Of a DNA stretch of 31,399 nucleotides, positions 4,916 to 27,204 are shown piece after piece. Made by a program: the position numbers and the translations under genes. Positions within the stretch are counted from its first letter, which is position 1, and each line of letters begins with the position of its first letter. The notes below the pieces were generated by a model. That model ran no database searches. It had not been told where the DNA came from and saw nothing but the letters and a program-made list of their open reading frames with translations. The DNA is taken from positions 1 to 31,399 of the IMG/VR virus record IMGVR_UViG_3300036945_000383; one strand, 5' to 3'. Origin of the DNA: a virus.

Positions 4916-5527
4916 ATGACTTTTATCAATGATGCTGATGTCTGGAGACAATGTCCGCATGAATATCTTTGGATTTACGATAAACTCATAGTGGCTCGTA
5001 AACAAGGCTTTTTAGCTGGCCCAGCAGGTATACCTGTGCCTAAACCAGCACAGTACATTGTTCGCCCCATAACAAATATACGCATGATGAGTCGAGGCGC
5101 CAGCAAGCAGTGGTTAACACCAGATGATACTGACCTAGTACCAGACGGATACTTCTGGTCTGAATGCTTTGAAGGCCGTCATACCAGTGTAGATTTTCAC
5201 TACGGCATTCAACACTTGGCAGTTGAGGGATTCAGAGATGATCCTGACAGATTAGATAGATTTTCAAAATGGCAGAAAATTGACGACCAGTACAAGTTCC
5301 CCGAGATGCTGGGAGAACTATGGCGTCTGACACCTTGGATCAATATAGAATGCATAGATGGTAAAATCATTGAAGTACATTTGCGATGGAATGATGACTT
5401 TTGCAATCACGACAGCGAAGTTATATACCCAGTCTGGCAAGACAATCCAATGCCGCAGCCGCTGGGCACTACTTGGTACAGTAGTCCTGCTGGCGATAGA
5501 CTTGGATTTTGGTGCAAGAACAAATAG
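4916..5527 (+). CDS. Conserved phage protein of unknown function, possibly ATP-grasp-like
   Basis: 203 aa from the ATG one base after the previous stop; a longer reading from 4880 would overlap the upstream gene and is less likely. The order of segments YIVRPITNIRMMSRGA, FWSECFEGRHTSVDF and INIECIDGKIIEVHLRWND resembles the nucleotide- and metal-binding strands of ATP-grasp ligases (E at the end of a strand, then GKIIEVxxR). Five cysteines are scattered without a clear metal motif. The similarity is weak and judged by eye. It ends in TAG and is separated from smpB by a promoter, so it closes the virion-type operon. Confidence 0.65.
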   Translation: MTFINDADVWRQCPHEYLWIYDKLIVARKQGFLAGPAGIPVPKPAQYIVRPITNIRMMSRGASKQWLTPDDTDLVPDGYFWSECFEGRHTSVDFHYGIQHLAVEGFRDDPDRLDRFSKWQKIDDQYKFPEMLGELWRLTPWINIECIDGKIIEVHLRWNDDFCNHDSEVIYPVWQDNPMPQPLGTTWYSSPAGDRLGFWCKNK

Positions 5528-5540
5528 TCAAGATACATCA

Positions 5541-5569
5541 TTGACAATTGTTGCCAGGTAATGTACAAT
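5541..5569 (+). promoter_or_regulatory. Sigma-70 promoter for smpB
   Basis: TTGACA at 5541-5546, 17-bp spacer, TACAAT at 5564-5569. The -10 box ends only five bases before the smpB ATG, so the expected transcription start coincides with the start codon (leaderless mRNA). Confidence 0.75.
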
Positions 5570-5574
5570 AACGC

Positions 5575-6000
5575 ATGTTCGAAAATAAAAAAGCCCGTTA
5601 CGATTATGAAATCCTGGAAGACTACGAGTGTGGCATCGTGCTGGAATCGTGGGAAGTCAAGGCCATTGCCAACAAGACTTGCTCTATTGTAGGCTCACAT
5701 TGTAAAGTATTCAACAGCGATGTGTTCCTTGTTGGTGCCAGTGTCGGCTCATCAGACAATGAGCAACAGCGTACACGAAAGCTATTGCTGCATCGTAAAG
5801 AAATCAATCGGCTGATTGGCAAAACGCAGGAAAAAGGTTTAACACTGGTTCCGCTGAAAATGTATCACAAGAAGGGCAAGTTCAAGTTATTGATTGGCCT
5901 TGCTCGTGGTAAGAAAGAATACGACAAGCGGGAAGTTGACAAGAAGCGTGATATTGAAAATGAAACACGCAGGATTGTAAAAAGTCAAAAATTAGCTTGA
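5575..6000 (+). CDS. smpB: SmpB, tmRNA-binding protein
   Basis: 141 aa; E. coli SmpB has 160. SmpB binds the tRNA-like domain of tmRNA, delivers it to stalled ribosomes and mimics the missing codon-anticodon pair. Family landmarks are all visible: NKKARYDYEILEDYECGIVL near the N-terminus, LESWEVKAIANKTCSI, RTRKLLLHRKEINRL in the middle, GLTLVPLKMY, KGKFKLLIGLARGKKEYDKR, and the basic C-terminal tail KKRDIENETRRIVK that enters the mRNA channel. The start is fixed because the conserved core begins at residue 4. No ribosome-binding site fits between the -10 box and the ATG, so it looks leaderless. The tmRNA gene follows at once, and its promoter overlaps the smpB stop codon. Confidence 0.96.
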   Translation: MFENKKARYDYEILEDYECGIVLESWEVKAIANKTCSIVGSHCKVFNSDVFLVGASVGSSDNEQQRTRKLLLHRKEINRLIGKTQEKGLTLVPLKMYHKKGKFKLLIGLARGKKEYDKREVDKKRDIENETRRIVKSQKLA

Positions 6001-6025
6001 CAAGCAGGAAAAACAAGTATATAAT
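5997..6025 (+). promoter_or_regulatory. Consensus sigma-70 promoter for the tmRNA gene
   Basis: TTGACA at 5997-6002, 17-bp spacer, TATAAT at 6020-6025, a full match to the sigma-70 consensus. The -35 box includes the smpB stop codon. The overlapping AATAAATA at 6023-6030 also fits the T4 late-promoter pattern NATAAATA, so the gene could be read both early and late. Expected start is near 6032. Confidence 0.9.
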
Positions 6026-6096
6026 AAATACTTGAACAGCGTAAAGTAGGAACTGAAAAATATTCAAGAACCCGGTTCAAATCCGGGCAGGTCCAC

Positions 6097-6171
6097 CATA
6101 GATACATTGGGGAATAATATAGTCCGTAAGGATGAATGCTGTCCTAGAGACCGTCCAACAATGTATCTATG
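6097..6171 (+). other. Intervening segment hairpin of the permuted tmRNA
   Basis: Perfect 13-bp inverted repeat CATAGATACATTG (6097-6109) / CAATGTATCTATG (6159-6171). Its left arm uses the last two bases of the CCA end and its right arm stops two bases before the 5' end of the coding piece. The helix would bring both processing sites side by side in the precursor before excision. Confidence 0.9.
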
Positions 6172-6282
6172 ATGGGCCTGAACTGGTTATCGATTGGGTA
6201 TTAAGTATGTTATCTATCGCTCGGCAATGTAGAAGCCGTTAGGATTGGGGTAACCTGGTCGCAGAAGCAAAACAAAGTAAAC

Positions 6283-6315
6283 GCAAACGACTCACAGTTC
6301 GCATTAGCTGCCTAA
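6283..6315 (+). other. tmRNA tag reading frame, peptide ANDSQFALAA
   Basis: The frame GCA AAC GAC TCA CAG TTC GCA TTA GCT GCC TAA follows AGTAAAC, as expected upstream of the resume codon. It encodes ANDSQFALAA, with the ...ALAA end recognised by ClpXP-type proteases. The resume codon is GCA (Ala), as in most tmRNAs. Confidence 0.95.
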
Positions 6316-6356
6316 ACTCAGCTTAGGGTAAGACATACCTCGTAACAGAAACTCAA

Positions 6357-6384
6357 GAAAGCACCTTCGGGTGCTTTCATTTTA
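6357..6384 (+). terminator. Rho-independent terminator of the tmRNA gene
   Basis: 9-bp stem GAAAGCACC / GGTGCTTTC closed by a TTCG tetraloop, followed by ATTTTATA. Confidence 0.93.
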
Positions 6385-6403
6385 TAGTCAATTTCTACCT
6401 GTT

Positions 6404-6459
6404 TGTTGCTAAAATACAACATAAAATTGGTTGACACACGGTCCTATTATTGTTATAAT
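6404..6459 (+). promoter_or_regulatory. Operator-promoter module 1
   Basis: Operator TGTTGCTAAAATACAACA at 6404-6421 differs from the perfect palindrome TGTTGTAGAAATACAACA in the centre-left only. Nine bases on is TTGACA (6431-6436), a 17-bp spacer, then TATAAT (6454-6459). It drives the operon from 6481. Confidence 0.85.
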
Positions 6460-6480
6460 ACTTGCTGGTAGGAGGGCATT

Positions 6481-6672
6481 ATGATGATAGTCGCAAAAAT
6501 AGATGGACGTATGGTCCAGGTTATGCGGGTGGCACACACTGTTGGCTTCTCCAATGAACGAGACTGGGTTATGGTGTGTTTTGACTTCGAACAGTCAGAC
6601 CGCCGCAAGCAACAGTTCAAGTGGATACCTGCATCAACTCGATTCGAGTGGGTCCGCGAATATAACTTTTAA
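6481..6672 (+). CDS. Small hypothetical early protein
   Basis: 63 aa (MMIVAKIDGRMVQVMRVAHT...). No known domain; the residues alternate between hydrophobic and charged in a way that suggests a small beta-rich fold (QVMRVAHTVGF, WVMVCFDFEQ, QFKWIPASTRFEWV). A strong Shine-Dalgarno (TAGGAGGG) lies seven bases upstream, and it is the first gene after a near-consensus sigma-70 promoter with the palindromic operator, so it is expected early and strongly. Confidence 0.75.
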   Translation: MMIVAKIDGRMVQVMRVAHTVGFSNERDWVMVCFDFEQSDRRKQQFKWIPASTRFEWVREYNF

Positions 6673-6682
6673 GGAGAGCACG

Positions 6683-6895
6683 ATGGCATACTTTTGGAGA
6701 AAAGCAAGAGGCCTTGCAGCCGATGTCGAACGCCATCGTGCAAAAGAAGCTGAACTAGATGCTAAGATAGCAGAGCTAGAGGACAAGCGAGATCCACTAA
6801 GCATTGCTTCATTGCGAGTATATCGTAGATTTCGTGCCCAACTGCTACAAAGCAAGGCTGAAATTGTAAACAAAATTGGCAAGAAAAATGTTTAA
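6683..6895 (+). CDS. Small hypothetical coiled-coil protein
   Basis: 70 aa from the ATG after AAGGAGAG; a longer in-frame reading from 6503 only overlaps the upstream gene. It is highly charged and helical (RHRAKEAELDAKIAELEDKR), consistent with a short coiled coil, and ends in a basic tail IGKKNV. The next gene starts eight bases before its stop. No function can be assigned. Confidence 0.75.
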   Translation: MAYFWRKARGLAADVERHRAKEAELDAKIAELEDKRDPLSIASLRVYRRFRAQLLQSKAEIVNKIGKKNV

Positions 6896-13456: not shown

Positions 13457-13897
13457 ATGAAAAAACTTACTATTGCAACATTAATTGCTTTATCCGCTAC
13501 AGTAGCTAGCGCCGCAGAGTTTGGCGTTACAACTAGCCGTGCAGACGATCGTAACAGCTTTGGTGTTACAGTTGGCCAGCAATTTGGCGCAGTTGGTGTA
13601 ACAGCAGGTGCAGAACGCACATCAGTTGGCGCAAACGATCAAAATCGTTTCAGCTTAATTGGCGCATACGATGTTGTTAAATTAGGTCCAGTTGCCGTTG
13701 CTGTCAAAGCAGGTGGCGCATACTTGAACAACCAAACTGGTGCTGATGGTTATGCCGCAGTTGTTGGTGCAGGCCTAAGTGTGCCAGTTACCAAAACAGT
13801 TACAGCAGGTGTTGACTTTACTCGCCAATACGGTCAAGACCGTGTTAGCCAGTTTGACGGCAATCGCGTAACAGCTGGTGTTAAGTTTGCATTCTAA
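13457..13897 (+). CDS. Secreted outer-membrane beta-barrel protein
   Basis: 146 aa. A Sec signal peptide (MKKLTIATLIALSATVASAA, cut probably after ASA) is followed by about 126 residues of amphipathic strands with alternating Gly/Val and polar residues (FGVTVGQQFGAVGVTAGAERT, VAVAVKAGGAYLN, TVTAGVDFTRQYG). The last strand ends RVTAGVKFAF, with the terminal Phe that the BAM complex recognises. The size fits an eight-stranded barrel. Phage-encoded barrels of this type (such as Lom-like proteins) alter the host surface; blocking superinfection is a plausible but unproven role. It has its own leader and terminator, thus is a single-gene unit. Confidence 0.85.
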   Translation: MKKLTIATLIALSATVASAAEFGVTTSRADDRNSFGVTVGQQFGAVGVTAGAERTSVGANDQNRFSLIGAYDVVKLGPVAVAVKAGGAYLNNQTGADGYAAVVGAGLSVPVTKTVTAGVDFTRQYGQDRVSQFDGNRVTAGVKFAF

Positions 13898-16318: not shown

Positions 16319-18415
16319 ATGAAATTTAAACTTAACTCACTTGCTATTGCTCTTGCACTATTATCAAGTTCAATTGCGTTTGGTCAGACCAAAGCACTCA
16401 ACTACGAAGCAAAAGAAATCTCCACTGTACTCAAAGTCGGCGGAGTTAACTATGCATGGGCACGTGGCATCACTGGTAAGGGTGTAACTATTGCAATCCT
16501 TGACAGCGGCTTTGACCTGACACACACTGACTTGTCCGGCAAGATTGTTGCAAGCAAAAACTTCAACTCAACCGTTGCATATCAAAATCCAACTAACCCA
16601 ACAGCAGTGACATGGGGCTATCACGGTACAATGATGGCAGGAATTGCCGCAGGTGCCAACAACGGCACTGGCACAGTTGGTGTTGCACCTGATGCAAAAC
16701 TGTTGCTTGGACAAGTTGGACAAGGTGGTACATCTCCATTGGTCAGTATGGCAGCAGTGGTCAGTGGTGTTGACTGGGCCAGCTCGCTCGGAGCAACTGC
16801 CATTAACTTGAGCCTTGGCTCTACATTTGACCCAACATTCCAAAAGGGCATGGTATTGCTCAATCCTGGTGTAGCCGGGGTATGGAAGGCTCCAGCACTG
16901 TATGGTTCAATGTATGGCCAAAGCAGAGCAACTCTCAATGGCTTGGCAGTGGGTACAAATCGTGGAAGCATTATTGTAGCGGCCGCTGGTAACCAAGGCT
17001 TGCCTTATGCACAGTTTCCAGGCGCATTTGCCACACAAGTTGACAGCACAGGCAAGTTGATTCTTGGCGGCCGTATGTTAATTGTTGGCGCCACAGATGT
17101 TGCTGGCAAAACTATTGCACCATTTTCAAATCGTGCAGGGCACATTTGTACAAACATTGTGGGCACCACATGTAATGATCCGTATCAGGTCAAGGACTTC
17201 TTTGTTGTTGCACCAGGTATGGCAGTGTACGGCTCGACCCCTAATCAAATGGCGATGGGAACAAATGGTTCAATTGGTGTCAACGGAACAAGCCCAGCAA
17301 CAGCCTACGTAACAGGTGGCATTGCATTGATGAAGCAAGCATGGCCACAACTGCGTCCCGAACAGTTGGTTGCACTTACACTTAACACAGCCAAGGACAT
17401 GGGTGCCAAGGGTGTTGACGAAGTGTACGGCCACGGCATGGTAGACTTTGATGCCGCAACACGCCCACAAGGTGCGTTGGTCATTGCAAATAATACCAAG
17501 TTGACTGGTTCAGGTCCGCAAGGCAAAGTGTTGCAACTTCAAGGCACCGGGGTAGTAACAACAGGTGCAGTGAACTTGACAACCAGCTCAGTGCTAAAAA
17601 ATACACAAGTGGTTGACTCCATTGGTCGTAACTATGCAGTGGACTTGACAAAAGCAGTTGGCTATAACAATGCAATGAGTTACCAATATGCCAGTCCTTG
17701 GATGAGTATGGCAGGTGCAAACTACAAGCAGATTGCCAACCCAATTGGCAAGGACGCTACATTGACATTCATGGCAAGTGATGGTGGTGCAGCTTCGCAG
17801 TATGAATGGCAGTATGATGCCAGCACACGCTTGGGCTTTGAAGTTGGAACACTGAGTGAGCAAAAAGGTTTCTTGGGCACACAAGGCGGCGGCGCAATGG
17901 AATTTGGTGGCTCTAGTACTGTATGGTCAGGTGCTAACTTTAGTCATAACATTGCTCATAACACTGCACTGATTGGTAGCTACACAATGGGTATGACTCG
18001 AACTAACAATGCAGCCAACAGCATGGTGCAACTTGGATCTACTGTACTTGCAGACTCGTGGAAGATTGGTGTAGCCAAGAGCAATATTTTGTTTGCTGGT
18101 AAGACCAAAGACACATTGAGCTTTGCAGTGGCTACTCCGGTAGCAGTGCGCTCAGGTCATGCAACTGTGACTGGTGTAACAGGTTACACTTACACTGACA
18201 ATGAAGATGGTACAACAGATGCAAATCCAGTAACACAAAGTGAACGAGTAAGCCTGGCACCTAAAGTACGTGAAATGGATTTGGTCCTTGGTTACACTGT
18301 AAGTCATAGCAACACTTCGATAATTGGTGTTAACTTGGTCAAGCAGTTTAACGTAAGTGGGCAGTCGGGTGTACAAGGTTACGGTGTGTCTATAATGGCA
18401 CGTAGCATGTTCTAA
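16319..18415 (+). CDS. Secreted subtilisin-like (S8) serine protease with probable outer-membrane C-terminal domain
   Basis: 698 aa. Signal peptide at 1-22 (KLNSLAIALALLSSSIAFG). S8 catalytic triad: D62 in AILDSGFD, H102 in YHGTMMAG, S325 in GTSPATAY; oxyanion Asn225 in AAAGNQG. The protease domain ends near residue 385. The remaining about 310 residues are rich in short amphipathic strands and finish YGVSIMARSMF with a terminal Phe, as in autotransporter or other outer-membrane barrels. Length and order match bacterial S8 autotransporters (NalP/SphB1 type). Such an enzyme is very unusual in a phage. It may cleave surface proteins, receptors or matrix. Its own promoter and terminator make it a single-gene insert; base use does not look strikingly different from its neighbours. 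Confidence 0.88.
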   Translation: MKFKLNSLAIALALLSSSIAFGQTKALNYEAKEISTVLKVGGVNYAWARGITGKGVTIAILDSGFDLTHTDLSGKIVASKNFNSTVAYQNPTNPTAVTWGYHGTMMAGIAAGANNGTGTVGVAPDAKLLLGQVGQGGTSPLVSMAAVVSGVDWASSLGATAINLSLGSTFDPTFQKGMVLLNPGVAGVWKAPALYGSMYGQSRATLNGLAVGTNRGSIIVAAAGNQGLPYAQFPGAFATQVDSTGKLILGGRMLIVGATDVAGKTIAPFSNRAGHICTNIVGTTCNDPYQVKDFFVVAPGMAVYGSTPNQMAMGTNGSIGVNGTSPATAYVTGGIALMKQAWPQLRPEQLVALTLNTAKDMGAKGVDEVYGHGMVDFDAATRPQGALVIANNTKLTGSGPQGKVLQLQGTGVVTTGAVNLTTSSVLKNTQVVDSIGRNYAVDLTKAVGYNNAMSYQYASPWMSMAGANYKQIANPIGKDATLTFMASDGGAASQYEWQYDASTRLGFEVGTLSEQKGFLGTQGGGAMEFGGSSTVWSGANFSHNIAHNTALIGSYTMGMTRTNNAANSMVQLGSTVLADSWKIGVAKSNILFAGKTKDTLSFAVATPVAVRSGHATVTGVTGYTYTDNEDGTTDANPVTQSERVSLAPKVREMDLVLGYTVSHSNTSIIGVNLVKQFNVSGQSGVQGYGVSIMARSMF

Positions 18416-24004: not shown

Positions 24005-25040
24005 TTTAAGGGTGGTTTAACATCCTGTAGGCGGCTTGCTGTCTACGAAGAATAACTGTGGTGACACAGCCAAAGGAGGTATGCCTACATAACTCCGCTA
24101 GAAATAGTTCATTTAGACAAGCCTGCTTGGTACCGTGAGGTACGCTTCGTTGATAAGACCGGCGGAGATAACAGCAAAGCTGATAGTAGTGGAAAGAACG
24201 TGTGCTCAAGCGCCGCAAGGTAACGCAAGTGCATGGAAAGGAAACAGGTGGTGCTGTCCTTCACTGCAAAACCAATCAGTTAGCTGGTACAAGAAAGGGT
24301 AGTGTATTGGTTCAAAGGGTCGCTCCTAAGAGCTGGTATGCAGTTTGAGTGGTTGGTGGTTGCGTTGTGAAACGCGGACATTGATCGCAAAAGACGACTG
24401 AGTAGCTCGCGAGGCAAAAGGTACGTGGTGTGTTGTATTGTGTAGAGCAAAACTTTATGCAGCAACTGAGTCAGCACATCGCAGTAGGTTGATATAGCTC
24501 ATTGTAGAGCAATTCCCTGTTAAGGAATAGGCTGTGGCTTCAAAACCACTATCTAACAAAAATGCAAAGACTGACTCGGTCATATGTGAAAAGCATCTAA
24601 TACTTGACACGCAAGTGAATCAAGTCCAACGTAACTCGCAAGGTGAAATTGGTTTATGCAGGAAGTTTCGTAAGGTGTTAGCGCACTTGAATGGCTCGCA
24701 AGGTCAACGGGATAGAAAGCGTAGAATAGCATATGGCGACAAGACTAGTGCCTGTCTTTAAAAACGGCGATGCTGATAGCAGACTATGATACATAGCAAT
24801 ATGGTTGTAGTGGAAATCAAGAGAAGGTATGCTCGCAAGGCGTACTATAATGCTTGAGGTGCTATTGGGAGAGATGTATTCTCAGTCCTCCACTATTCTA
24901 AAGCACATTACGAGTCCATGCCTCTTCCGCAAATAAGGAAGGATAGTGTGTTTCAGAATAGAAAGATACATTAAAGTGTGACTGCGTCATTGGCAACAGT
25001 GAGAGGCCTACTAAAGCTGTAGGACATTAGTGTGTTTTAA
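24005..25040 (+). ncRNA. Very large structured RNA, GOLLD/ROOL-like
   Basis: About 1.04 kb without a credible gene (about 1.2 kb if the tRNA-Ser domain and leader from 23844 are included). It is packed with GNRA-capped hairpins: CTGTG-GTGA-CACAG (24056), GTACC-GTGA-GGTAC (24130), GCGTT-GTGA-AACGC (24362), CAC-GCAA-GTG inside CTTGA/TCAAG (24603), and four copies of a bulged motif CTC-GNRA-GG at 24406, 24635, 24695 and 24832. Longer-range pairs include GTAGGC/GCCTAC (24027/24083), CTCCGC/GCGGAG (24093/24162), ACCAAT/ATTGGT (24271/24306), TAGTGGA/TCCACTA (24808/24889) and CCTAC/GTAGG (25007/25019). Known giant RNAs of phages and prophages next to tRNA genes are GOLLD and ROOL; GOLLD was first seen in lake DNA and can contain a tRNA. 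Family membership is inference; no consensus could be checked here. Confidence 0.75.
24488..24557 (+). tRNA. tRNA-Asn(GTT)-like domain inside the large RNA
   Basis: GTTGATA pairs with TATC-T-AAC with one bulged T; D arm GCTCATTGTAGAGC; anticodon stem-loop ATTCC-CTGTTAA-GGAAT; T-like arm GTGG-CTTCAAAA-CCAC. No CCA. It may be a functional tRNA released from the RNA, or a tRNA-shaped structural domain. Confidence 0.6.
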
Positions 25041-26305: not shown

Positions 26306-26533
26306 ATGTATAAAATAATAGGAAAAGAAGAAAGCTTCAAAGTGCTTACACTTGCCGAAGCAATGAATGTTGCCAAGTCGATGAATGAATTTGTTACTAT
26401 CAAAGGCACAGACTTTGAAGTTTGTGGGTTGTTTGGAGTAGACAGTATCAAGGACGGAACGTGCCCAGATGGTGTCAAATATGATTGGAACAAGGCCAGC
26501 AGAATTGGTCGAGTTAAAAAAGAGAGAGTATAA
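26306..26533 (+). CDS. Small conserved phage protein
   Basis: 75 aa, starting MYKIIGKEESFKVLTLAEAMN. It ends in a basic strand RIGRVKKERV; the middle VTIKGTDFEVCGLFGVDSI is beta-rich. Similar small proteins are frequent in phages without known role. Its stop overlaps the release-factor start (TAATG), so the two are coupled. No strong Shine-Dalgarno. Confidence 0.73.
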   Translation: MYKIIGKEESFKVLTLAEAMNVAKSMNEFVTIKGTDFEVCGLFGVDSIKDGTCPDGVKYDWNKASRIGRVKKERV

Positions 26534-27204
26534 TGAAACGAGTCATTGAAATCCGAGCCGCAGAAGGCGGCGATGATGCAAAACTATTTGTCAGCGATCT
26601 TGCTGACGCTTACCAACGACTAGGCAACAAGCTAGGCTGAATTATTCGCACACAGGGCTCTTGGCCAGGAGAAATACATCTCTTAGTCAACGGCCCTGAT
26701 CTTACGAGTTTAGAATCAGAATCTGGTGGGCATCGTATACAGCGCATACCACCAACTGAGAGAAAAGGCCGTGTACATACCAGCACTGTCACGGTTGCTG
26801 TTATTGATCCGGAAGTTACCGTGATTGCGTTTGACAAGCGTGATTGTAGCATTGATTGGTTTTCGGGCACAGGTGCAGGTGGACAACATCGTAACAAGCA
26901 CCAAAATTCGTGTAGAATAGTACACATTCCTACTGGAATTACAGCAGTTGCACAGTGCAGAAGCAGGACCAATAGCCTTACAGAAGCCATGGGTATTATC
27001 CAGAAAAGACTTGACGAAACGGTTAGAACCAAGTATAATAAAGCTATTGCACAGGATAGAAAGACCCAAGTTGGTTCTGGTATGCGAGGAGATAAAATCC
27101 GTACATACCGTTTCCAAGACGATAAGGTACTGGATCATGCAACTGATAAGACAGCAAGTGTTAAAAAAGTACTAGCTGGAAACTTTGATTTGCTTTGGAG
27201 CTAA
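26533..27204 (+). CDS. RF1-like release factor lacking domain 1, with an in-frame UGA at codon 36
   Basis: 223 codons if the UGA is read. It begins at the domain 2 signature RVIEIRAAEGGDDAKLF. ESGGHRIQRIPPTERKGRVHTS carries P73-P74-T75, matching the PxT stop-codon selector of RF1 (UAA/UAG). GAGGQH with GGQ at 116-118 is the peptidyl-transferase-centre motif. RF1/RF2 domain 1 is missing; E. coli RF1 has 360 aa. TGA at 26638-26640 is in frame with no shift in the rest, and falls where RF1/RF2 have a conserved Trp (GNKLG-stop-IIRTQG, compare RRWRVE). TGA is a normal stop elsewhere in this window. The gene is therefore either a fresh nonsense mutant (TGG to TGA), a sequencing error, or a readthrough-regulated factor. 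Downstream of the UGA no good restart is visible. Confidence 0.85.

Follow-up and report, generated by a model that had tools for sequence, protein, structure and literature searches.

The stretch of DNA analysed here (hereafter the window), a 31-kb fragment of 31,399 bases that forms an IMG/VR virus record, in all probability carries a functional trans-translation cassette of the phage's own, in which smpB is followed by the gene of a two-piece tmRNA; we put the likelihood of this reading at roughly 0.8. Phages with both SmpB and tmRNA are already known, and what is new is that the two form an adjacent pair with a permuted tmRNA. Such a cassette would make a trans-translation unit that is compact, self-contained and portable and has two strong promoters. 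We propose that two strong sigma-70 promoters would allow host RNA polymerase to express smpB and the tmRNA gene early in infection, that the tmRNA precursor would fold and have its intervening loop excised by host tRNA-processing enzymes, and that the two pieces would be held together by a 7-bp acceptor stem with CCA and the G3-U70 pair, the signal for the host alanyl-tRNA synthetase. Phage SmpB and Ala-tmRNA could then enter ribosomes stalled on truncated mRNA and add the tag ANDSQFALAA; the ribosome would be released at the UAA of the tag and the tagged fragment would go to host ClpXP.

The smpB gene and the two-piece tmRNA

The smpB gene (5575..6000, plus strand) encodes a protein of 141 amino acids, an SmpB of the phage clade in which the C-terminal tail is intact and the central loop shortened. 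The match is full-length and lies above the curated cut-offs of both Pfam (PF01668, E 1.5e-45, 155.1 bits against a cut-off of 27) and NCBIfam (NF003843, 161 bits against 130; TIGR00086, 145 bits against 119.1). The C-terminal tail of SmpB goes into the mRNA channel; in the clade it contains the motif GKKxYDKR and a basic extension, is near-invariant across the aligned members (GKRDYDKR in the relative L095), and the profile alignment with solved SmpBs extends through residue 136. SmpB is under strong purifying selection, with dN/dS values of 0.048-0.086 in the six pairs with unsaturated synonymous change.

Downstream of smpB, ARAGORN called a permuted tmRNA at 6006-6406 with the tag ANDSQFALAA, and the Rfam model tmRNA_permuted (RF04321) matched positions 6038-6315 with 93.1 bits (cut-off 47). 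The best-fitting clade model was beta_tmRNA (RF01850), which matched 5983-6379 with 88.4 bits (cut-off 84); among the records scanned with this model, the window, L002, L004 and L005 exceeded 84 bits, and L003 was absent from the matches. The earlier note, made from the sequence alone, had described smpB as directly followed by tmRNA, and both genes do pass the cut-offs of their families (Pfam and NCBIfam for SmpB, Rfam for the RNA). The feature which its author overlooked is that the tmRNA of the window is circularly permuted, i.e. two-piece. According to ARAGORN, Rfam and stem comparison, the acceptor 3' half is encoded ahead of the 5' half and the two are joined by a segment that is predicted to be excised. 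The acceptor piece (6071..6098, plus strand, as are the following elements) comprises the T stem-loop (6071-6087), the 3' strand of the acceptor stem (6088-6094) and an encoded ACCA (6095-6098). The intervening segment of the precursor (6099..6173) is predicted to fold as a hairpin, and the coding piece then begins with the acceptor 5' strand GGGCCTG (6174..6180), which provides the G of G3-U70, and contains the tag reading frame, which has a resume codon and ends in a stop (ANDSQFALAA plus TAA), at 6283..6315. The hairpin of the window is long (-20.3 kcal/mol, z -1.7); against shuffled sequences z was -2.7 in L005 and -0.4 in L004, the latter being no better than shuffles.

Comparison of the eight distinct phages of the clade (see below) shows that the 7-bp acceptor stem is fully paired in all of them, with pairs 4-7 varying on both sides, that G3-U70 and the encoded ACCA are unchanged throughout, and that the 5-bp T stem is likewise paired in 8 of 8 with both sides varying. 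This bears on the idea that only SmpB is in use and the tmRNA is decaying as a relic, or vice versa. A tmRNA below the model cut-off, that of L096, would fit such decay. However, acceptor stems that have stayed intact through covariation in every phage, together with the purifying selection on SmpB, argue the other way; the covariation largely refutes the relic reading, which we regard as extremely improbable.

As the earlier note had observed, each gene has a sigma-70 promoter of its own and the cassette ends in a terminator, all three being confirmed here. The smpB promoter (5541..5569, plus strand) reads TTGACA-17-TACAAT, the tmRNA promoter (5997..6025, plus strand) is a perfect sigma-70 consensus, TTGACA-17-TATAAT, that spans the smpB stop codon, and the intrinsic terminator hairpin lies at 6357..6378 on the same strand. 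Promoter-like sites number eight in the region 5400-6700, compared with 2.9 expected from shuffling. Since the second hexamer of the smpB promoter ends only 5 nt upstream of the ATG, the smpB mRNA is predicted to be leaderless. A promoter at such spacing is present in L003 (12/12 consensus bases, -5) and L005 (12/12, -7) and weakly in L096 (8/12, -5), and was not found in L004, L094, L095 and L098. Although smpB and tmRNA are separated by other genes in L003 and L004, the tmRNA promoter is retained there next to the tmRNA; it is missing in L005. From these sites, both promoters would be expected to be used, presumably early in infection.

Phage lineage and co-inheritance

Scans of viral contigs yielded nine further records with an SmpB of the window type (67-100% identity), the next matches being at most 47% identical. 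L002 comes from the population that the window itself represents (100% over 9,346 bases) and L096 and L097 are one phage (99.88%), so that the ten records represent eight distinct phages; they include records of 369 and 385 kb. No members beyond these ten records were found with a profile of the clade, and a nucleotide pattern describing the tmRNA core matched only six contigs, all already known. In a tree of 64 SmpB sequences, hand-picked from 190 extracted ones to span the groups (that of L012 was left out for a stop within its translation), the eight phages form one clade (support 100/100) that is separate from Neisseria and E. coli and whose stem measures 1.06 changes per site. The tree thus indicates that the SmpB of the clade has one origin.

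All ten records contain a permuted tmRNA, above the RF04321 cut-off in eight of them; the phage represented by L096 and L097 scores 37 bits, under the cut-off. In five of the eight phages the tmRNA follows smpB without an ORF in between, whereas the two are separated by one ORF in L003, by 2.1 kb in L004 and by about 14 kb in L094. The distances measured on SmpB are correlated with those measured on the tmRNA (r 0.68; an equally high value arose in 29 of 5000 permutations). L003 has an SmpB that is 95% identical to that of the window yet a tmRNA which is nearer to that of L096 than to the window's, and this mismatch between its partners implies that the tmRNA can be swapped.

The earlier note had taken clustering of SmpB and tmRNA in phages as a sign of a phage lineage and near-identity to one host genome as the sign of a host contig or chance capture. 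The first is borne out by the SmpB clade and by the permuted tmRNA in every one of its records, and the second was not seen: the best bacterial SmpB among 84,980 species genomes, scanned in a way that reaches close relatives only, is 52% identical. As regards both partners being present, phage-borne and co-inherited, the reading of that note stands; as regards the permutation, it was incomplete. A phage-only clade, an identity of at most 52% to bacterial proteins, and a permuted tmRNA with covarying stem and G3-U70 in 8 of 8 phages lead us to suggest that the cassette is an old, selected phage module rather than host DNA or a recent capture.

The window proteins that were scanned include no integrase. 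The T4-like gene set of the window comprises rIIA and rIIB, NrdB and the last part of NrdA, a glutaredoxin, a PNK-like kinase and an RNA ligase of the Rnl1 type. The phage thus looks T4-like, and with rIIA, rIIB, NrdA/B and Rnl1 it is virulent in appearance. Could the cassette still be a host capture or the edge of a prophage, smpB and ssrA having been carried along since many temperate phages integrate in ssrA? Such an arrangement does occur in Klebsiella phage L016, where smpB lies at the very end and is adjoined by a standard, host-like tmRNA. In the window, however, the neighbours are T4-like, the tmRNA is permuted and the SmpB, whose best bacterial match found is 52% identical, belongs to the phage clade supported at 100/100. 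A host-like SmpB with a standard tmRNA at the phage end, as expected of a smpB-ssrA pair at a prophage attachment site, was not found, which largely refutes this origin; given a T4-like and virulent-looking phage, we consider it highly improbable that the cassette is a prophage edge as in L016.

The beta_tmRNA model fits the RNA of the window best, but the SmpB does not group with Neisseria. The betaproteobacterial two-piece tmRNA (RF01850) shares piece order, acceptor stem and tag region with the RNA of the window; it differs in that the window SmpB is not proteobacterial in the tree and in that three relatives have tags far from the usual length. A search for a bacterial host via beta SmpB or tmRNA gave 0 of 395 genomes above the cut-off in each of two samples (G006, G007) that were intended to be proteobacterial. 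These samples probably drew non-proteobacterial groups, as no genome in them had a permuted tmRNA above the cut-off.

How common are such pairs? Thirty-five virus records with SmpB, drawn from the best 80, were searched over their full length; 17 of them contain a tmRNA above the cut-off, nine permuted and eight one-piece. Two Lak phage records contain SmpB and a one-piece tmRNA above the cut-off, far apart. Both results speak against the earlier note's view that phages commonly carry one part at most, and so do the published huge phages, including Lak, which in the part of that source available to us (PMC7162821) hold, like the window, both partners in a single genome. The two Lak records searched here are unlike the window in that their one-piece tmRNA is far from smpB, and the SmpBs of Lak phages have another position in the tree. 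Two-piece tmRNAs as such make up 53 of 133 unique phage tmRNAs according to the accessible part of one report (PMC9004378). The Methylophilales phage Melnitz and the pelagimyophages described there are, like the present phages, aquatic myophages with a permuted tmRNA; unlike in the window cassette, however, the ssrA gene of Melnitz adjoins a transcription coactivator with a glutamine riboswitch, and a phage smpB is not mentioned in that part of the report (PMC9004378). From what is available of two further sources, phage sequences are present in a tmRNA database (PMC11915505) and earlier lists of phage ssrA have been published (PMC4131195). Our literature search, outside which most subscription papers and preprints lay, turned up no phage reported to have smpB next to a permuted tmRNA, and no report of long tags in phages.

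Some other features of the window may be mentioned here. It contains 16 tRNAs, 15 of them called by ARAGORN and one found by Rfam only within a GOLLD RNA, and not 18 as previously counted. The GOLLD RNA (24425-24888, 206.8 bits, Rfam) lies within the tRNA array and contains the tRNA at 24488-24558. A subtilase (Peptidase_S8) of 698 amino acids is encoded at 16319-18415 and retained in the relative L005. A gene for a small outer-membrane-like secreted protein is located directly 3' of the tmRNA in several relatives and about 7 kb off in the window (window 13457-13897; L004 3300-3743; also in L096 and G009).

Tags and Clp proteases

The window tag ANDSQFALAA ends in ALAA and is, judged by its sequence, an ordinary ClpXP-type degron. 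Similar tags are found in L003 (ANDETPYALAA) and in L004 and L005 (ANDESYALAA), and L098 has the tag ANDSFYTEALAA. Three of the eight phages, L094 (ANNVSTEFASFDLSAFADAEVAFA), L095 (ATAYTTSVSQLDLSALDDVEEAIAA; its tmRNA was not called by ARAGORN) and L096 (ANANVTSGVKMTVAKGFRFGGSKVAATEAAFA), have long tags of 24, 25 and 32 amino acids. These look like insertions and not like lost stops, because in the alignment a similar downstream element follows the stop in short and long forms. In the SmpB tree the long-tag phages are not united in a single clade, and comparison of the long tags with other proteins of the same loci gave similarity at chance level only. When the tag ends of L094 and L095 are compared in an ungapped register picked by eye, the last 14 codons have eight residues in common, all eight specified by different synonymous codons; the differences at codon positions 1, 2 and 3 number 4, 3 and 12, and 51 of 100,000 random draws were as good. 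A degenerate pattern for this tag end matched only those two records in the whole viral collection. The phage-specific degron that the earlier note had envisaged is not what the window tag, which is canonical, would represent; in the three long-tag relatives it is plausible. Since the tags of this one lineage range naturally from the canonical form to very long ones, changes in ssrA degron specificity become directly testable.

Mycoplasma and Mesoplasma tmRNA tags are long, end in AFA and are read by Lon. The tags of L094 and L096 are likewise long with an AFA end, but the sequences are unrelated, and Lon, sought as the reader of AFA tags, was found in none of 16 phage records. Other tmRNAs in virus records (L020; L100/L187; L191; L193; L194) have diverse tags, for example DDEIDFRMAA, AKNNLPTVASNDSDFHMAIAA and EDALAFVDGEFALAA.

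ClpP was found in 9 of the 16 records searched, among them G009 (L094), G011 (L096) and G013 (L098); the ClpP matches of G014, G030 and G032 cover part of the profile only and may be head-maturation proteases. Against an NCBIfam subfamily cut-off of 249, the ClpP proteins of G009, G011 and G013 score 249.4, 281.8 and 252.1, and all fail the stricter equivalog. AAA_2 proteins of ClpA and ClpX size are encoded in G009, G013, G021 and G024. The ClpX of G009 exceeds the NCBIfam cut-offs (473.7 against 359; 435.6 against 370.75), that of G013 was observed in part, and both ClpA proteins tested have ClpA as their best NCBIfam match, under the cut-off. From the combined profile matches we infer that G009 and G013 carry tmRNA, SmpB, ClpX, ClpA and ClpP. 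In the jumbo phages G009 and G013, and also in G021 and G024, ClpP and AAA proteins of ClpX and ClpA size are encoded in addition to SmpB and permuted tmRNA. The window and its 105-kb relative G003, both of them fragments, yielded neither ClpP nor Lon. It is our guess that phage Clp proteases read phage tags. In the Sinorhizobium jumbo phage AP-J-162, as in the jumbo relatives, tmRNA and Clp proteins occur together, but in the part of the source at hand SmpB is not mentioned and ClpX is ascribed to DNA replication (PMC11242549). The words Clp, protease and chaperone are absent from the main text on the huge phages (PMC7162821).

These observations are relevant to the alternative that SmpB and tmRNA of the phage serve interference, i.e. 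that they titrate or replace the host system and redirect tagging, for instance so as to shield phage products or have certain host proteins degraded. The rewritten long tags in 3 of 8 phages, two of them with ends conserved through synonymous codons, and the ClpP, ClpX and ClpA of the jumbo relatives G009 and G013 would agree with this. Against it, the window tag ends in ALAA as ordinary tags do, and genes for ClpP and Lon were missing from the window and G003 as far as these fragments reach. We therefore hold interference to be unlikely, if worth keeping in mind, and favour ribosome rescue by a phage-owned cassette. The cassette also suggests that some phages replace, and do not merely borrow, ribosome quality control.

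A release factor gene with an in-frame UGA

The RF1-like ORF of the window is the second half of a gene for an RF1-type release factor without domain 1 (26533..27204, plus strand), which is interrupted by an in-frame TGA at 26638-26640. Read through this TGA, the gene encodes PCRF and RF-1 domains and scores 196.7 bits with the RF1 model NF001859, which is under the cut-off of 400, versus 108.2 bits for RF2; the match to NF001859 begins at position 107 of 347, domain 1 being absent, and its frame is broken by the TGA. The TGA sits where the compared solved bacterial RF1s have Trp. Relatives of the gene number 244, of which the best 80 were taken (L349-L428), three of them ending before the UGA codon. 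TGA is present in all 77 that reach the codon, in 81 of 81 when the window, L094, L095 and L098 are included, and in 43 of 43 after clustering at 85%. The six codons 3' of the TGA show the strongest synonymous constraint among 126 six-codon stretches (same-codon fraction 0.785 compared with a mean of 0.489). Of six release factors from records of the phage collection that were taken as controls, five lack a stop at the corresponding position and for the sixth no alignment by eye was possible; three of the six have in-frame stops elsewhere. A recoded genome in which UGA means Trp throughout can be set aside for the window, since 8 of its 35 genes end in TGA and UGA thus serves as a normal stop there.

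These features make the gene a candidate for obligatory UGA readthrough by which UGA termination would be sensed, and it may be a bigger lead than the tmRNA cassette. According to the accessible part of a survey of 12,753 bacterial genomes, autoregulation is found for prfB and none for prfA (PMC12421855), and among the literature matches listed there was no paper on an in-frame UGA in a phage release factor. If the UGA is indeed read through, this would be a new kind of release-factor regulation. Tentatively, and with more doubt than confidence, one may envisage a phage-run surveillance of translation in which SmpB and two-piece tmRNA free ribosomes, the tags of the jumbo phages are long degrons read by phage Clp, and the RF1 without domain 1, made only on readthrough of the invariant UGA, both senses and answers failing UGA termination.

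That the release factor gene is a fixed neighbour of the cassette was rejected, as 0 of 80 release factor loci have SmpB (tblastn) or tmRNA (ARAGORN) within about 2 kb, the tRNA listing having covered 52 of the 80; the gene adjoins SmpB or tmRNA only in L094, L095 and L098, which are jumbo or fragment relatives. RNA-repair genes are often located within 2 kb of the UGA-bearing gene, PNK-like ones at 17 and Rnl1-like ones at 15 of the 80 loci.
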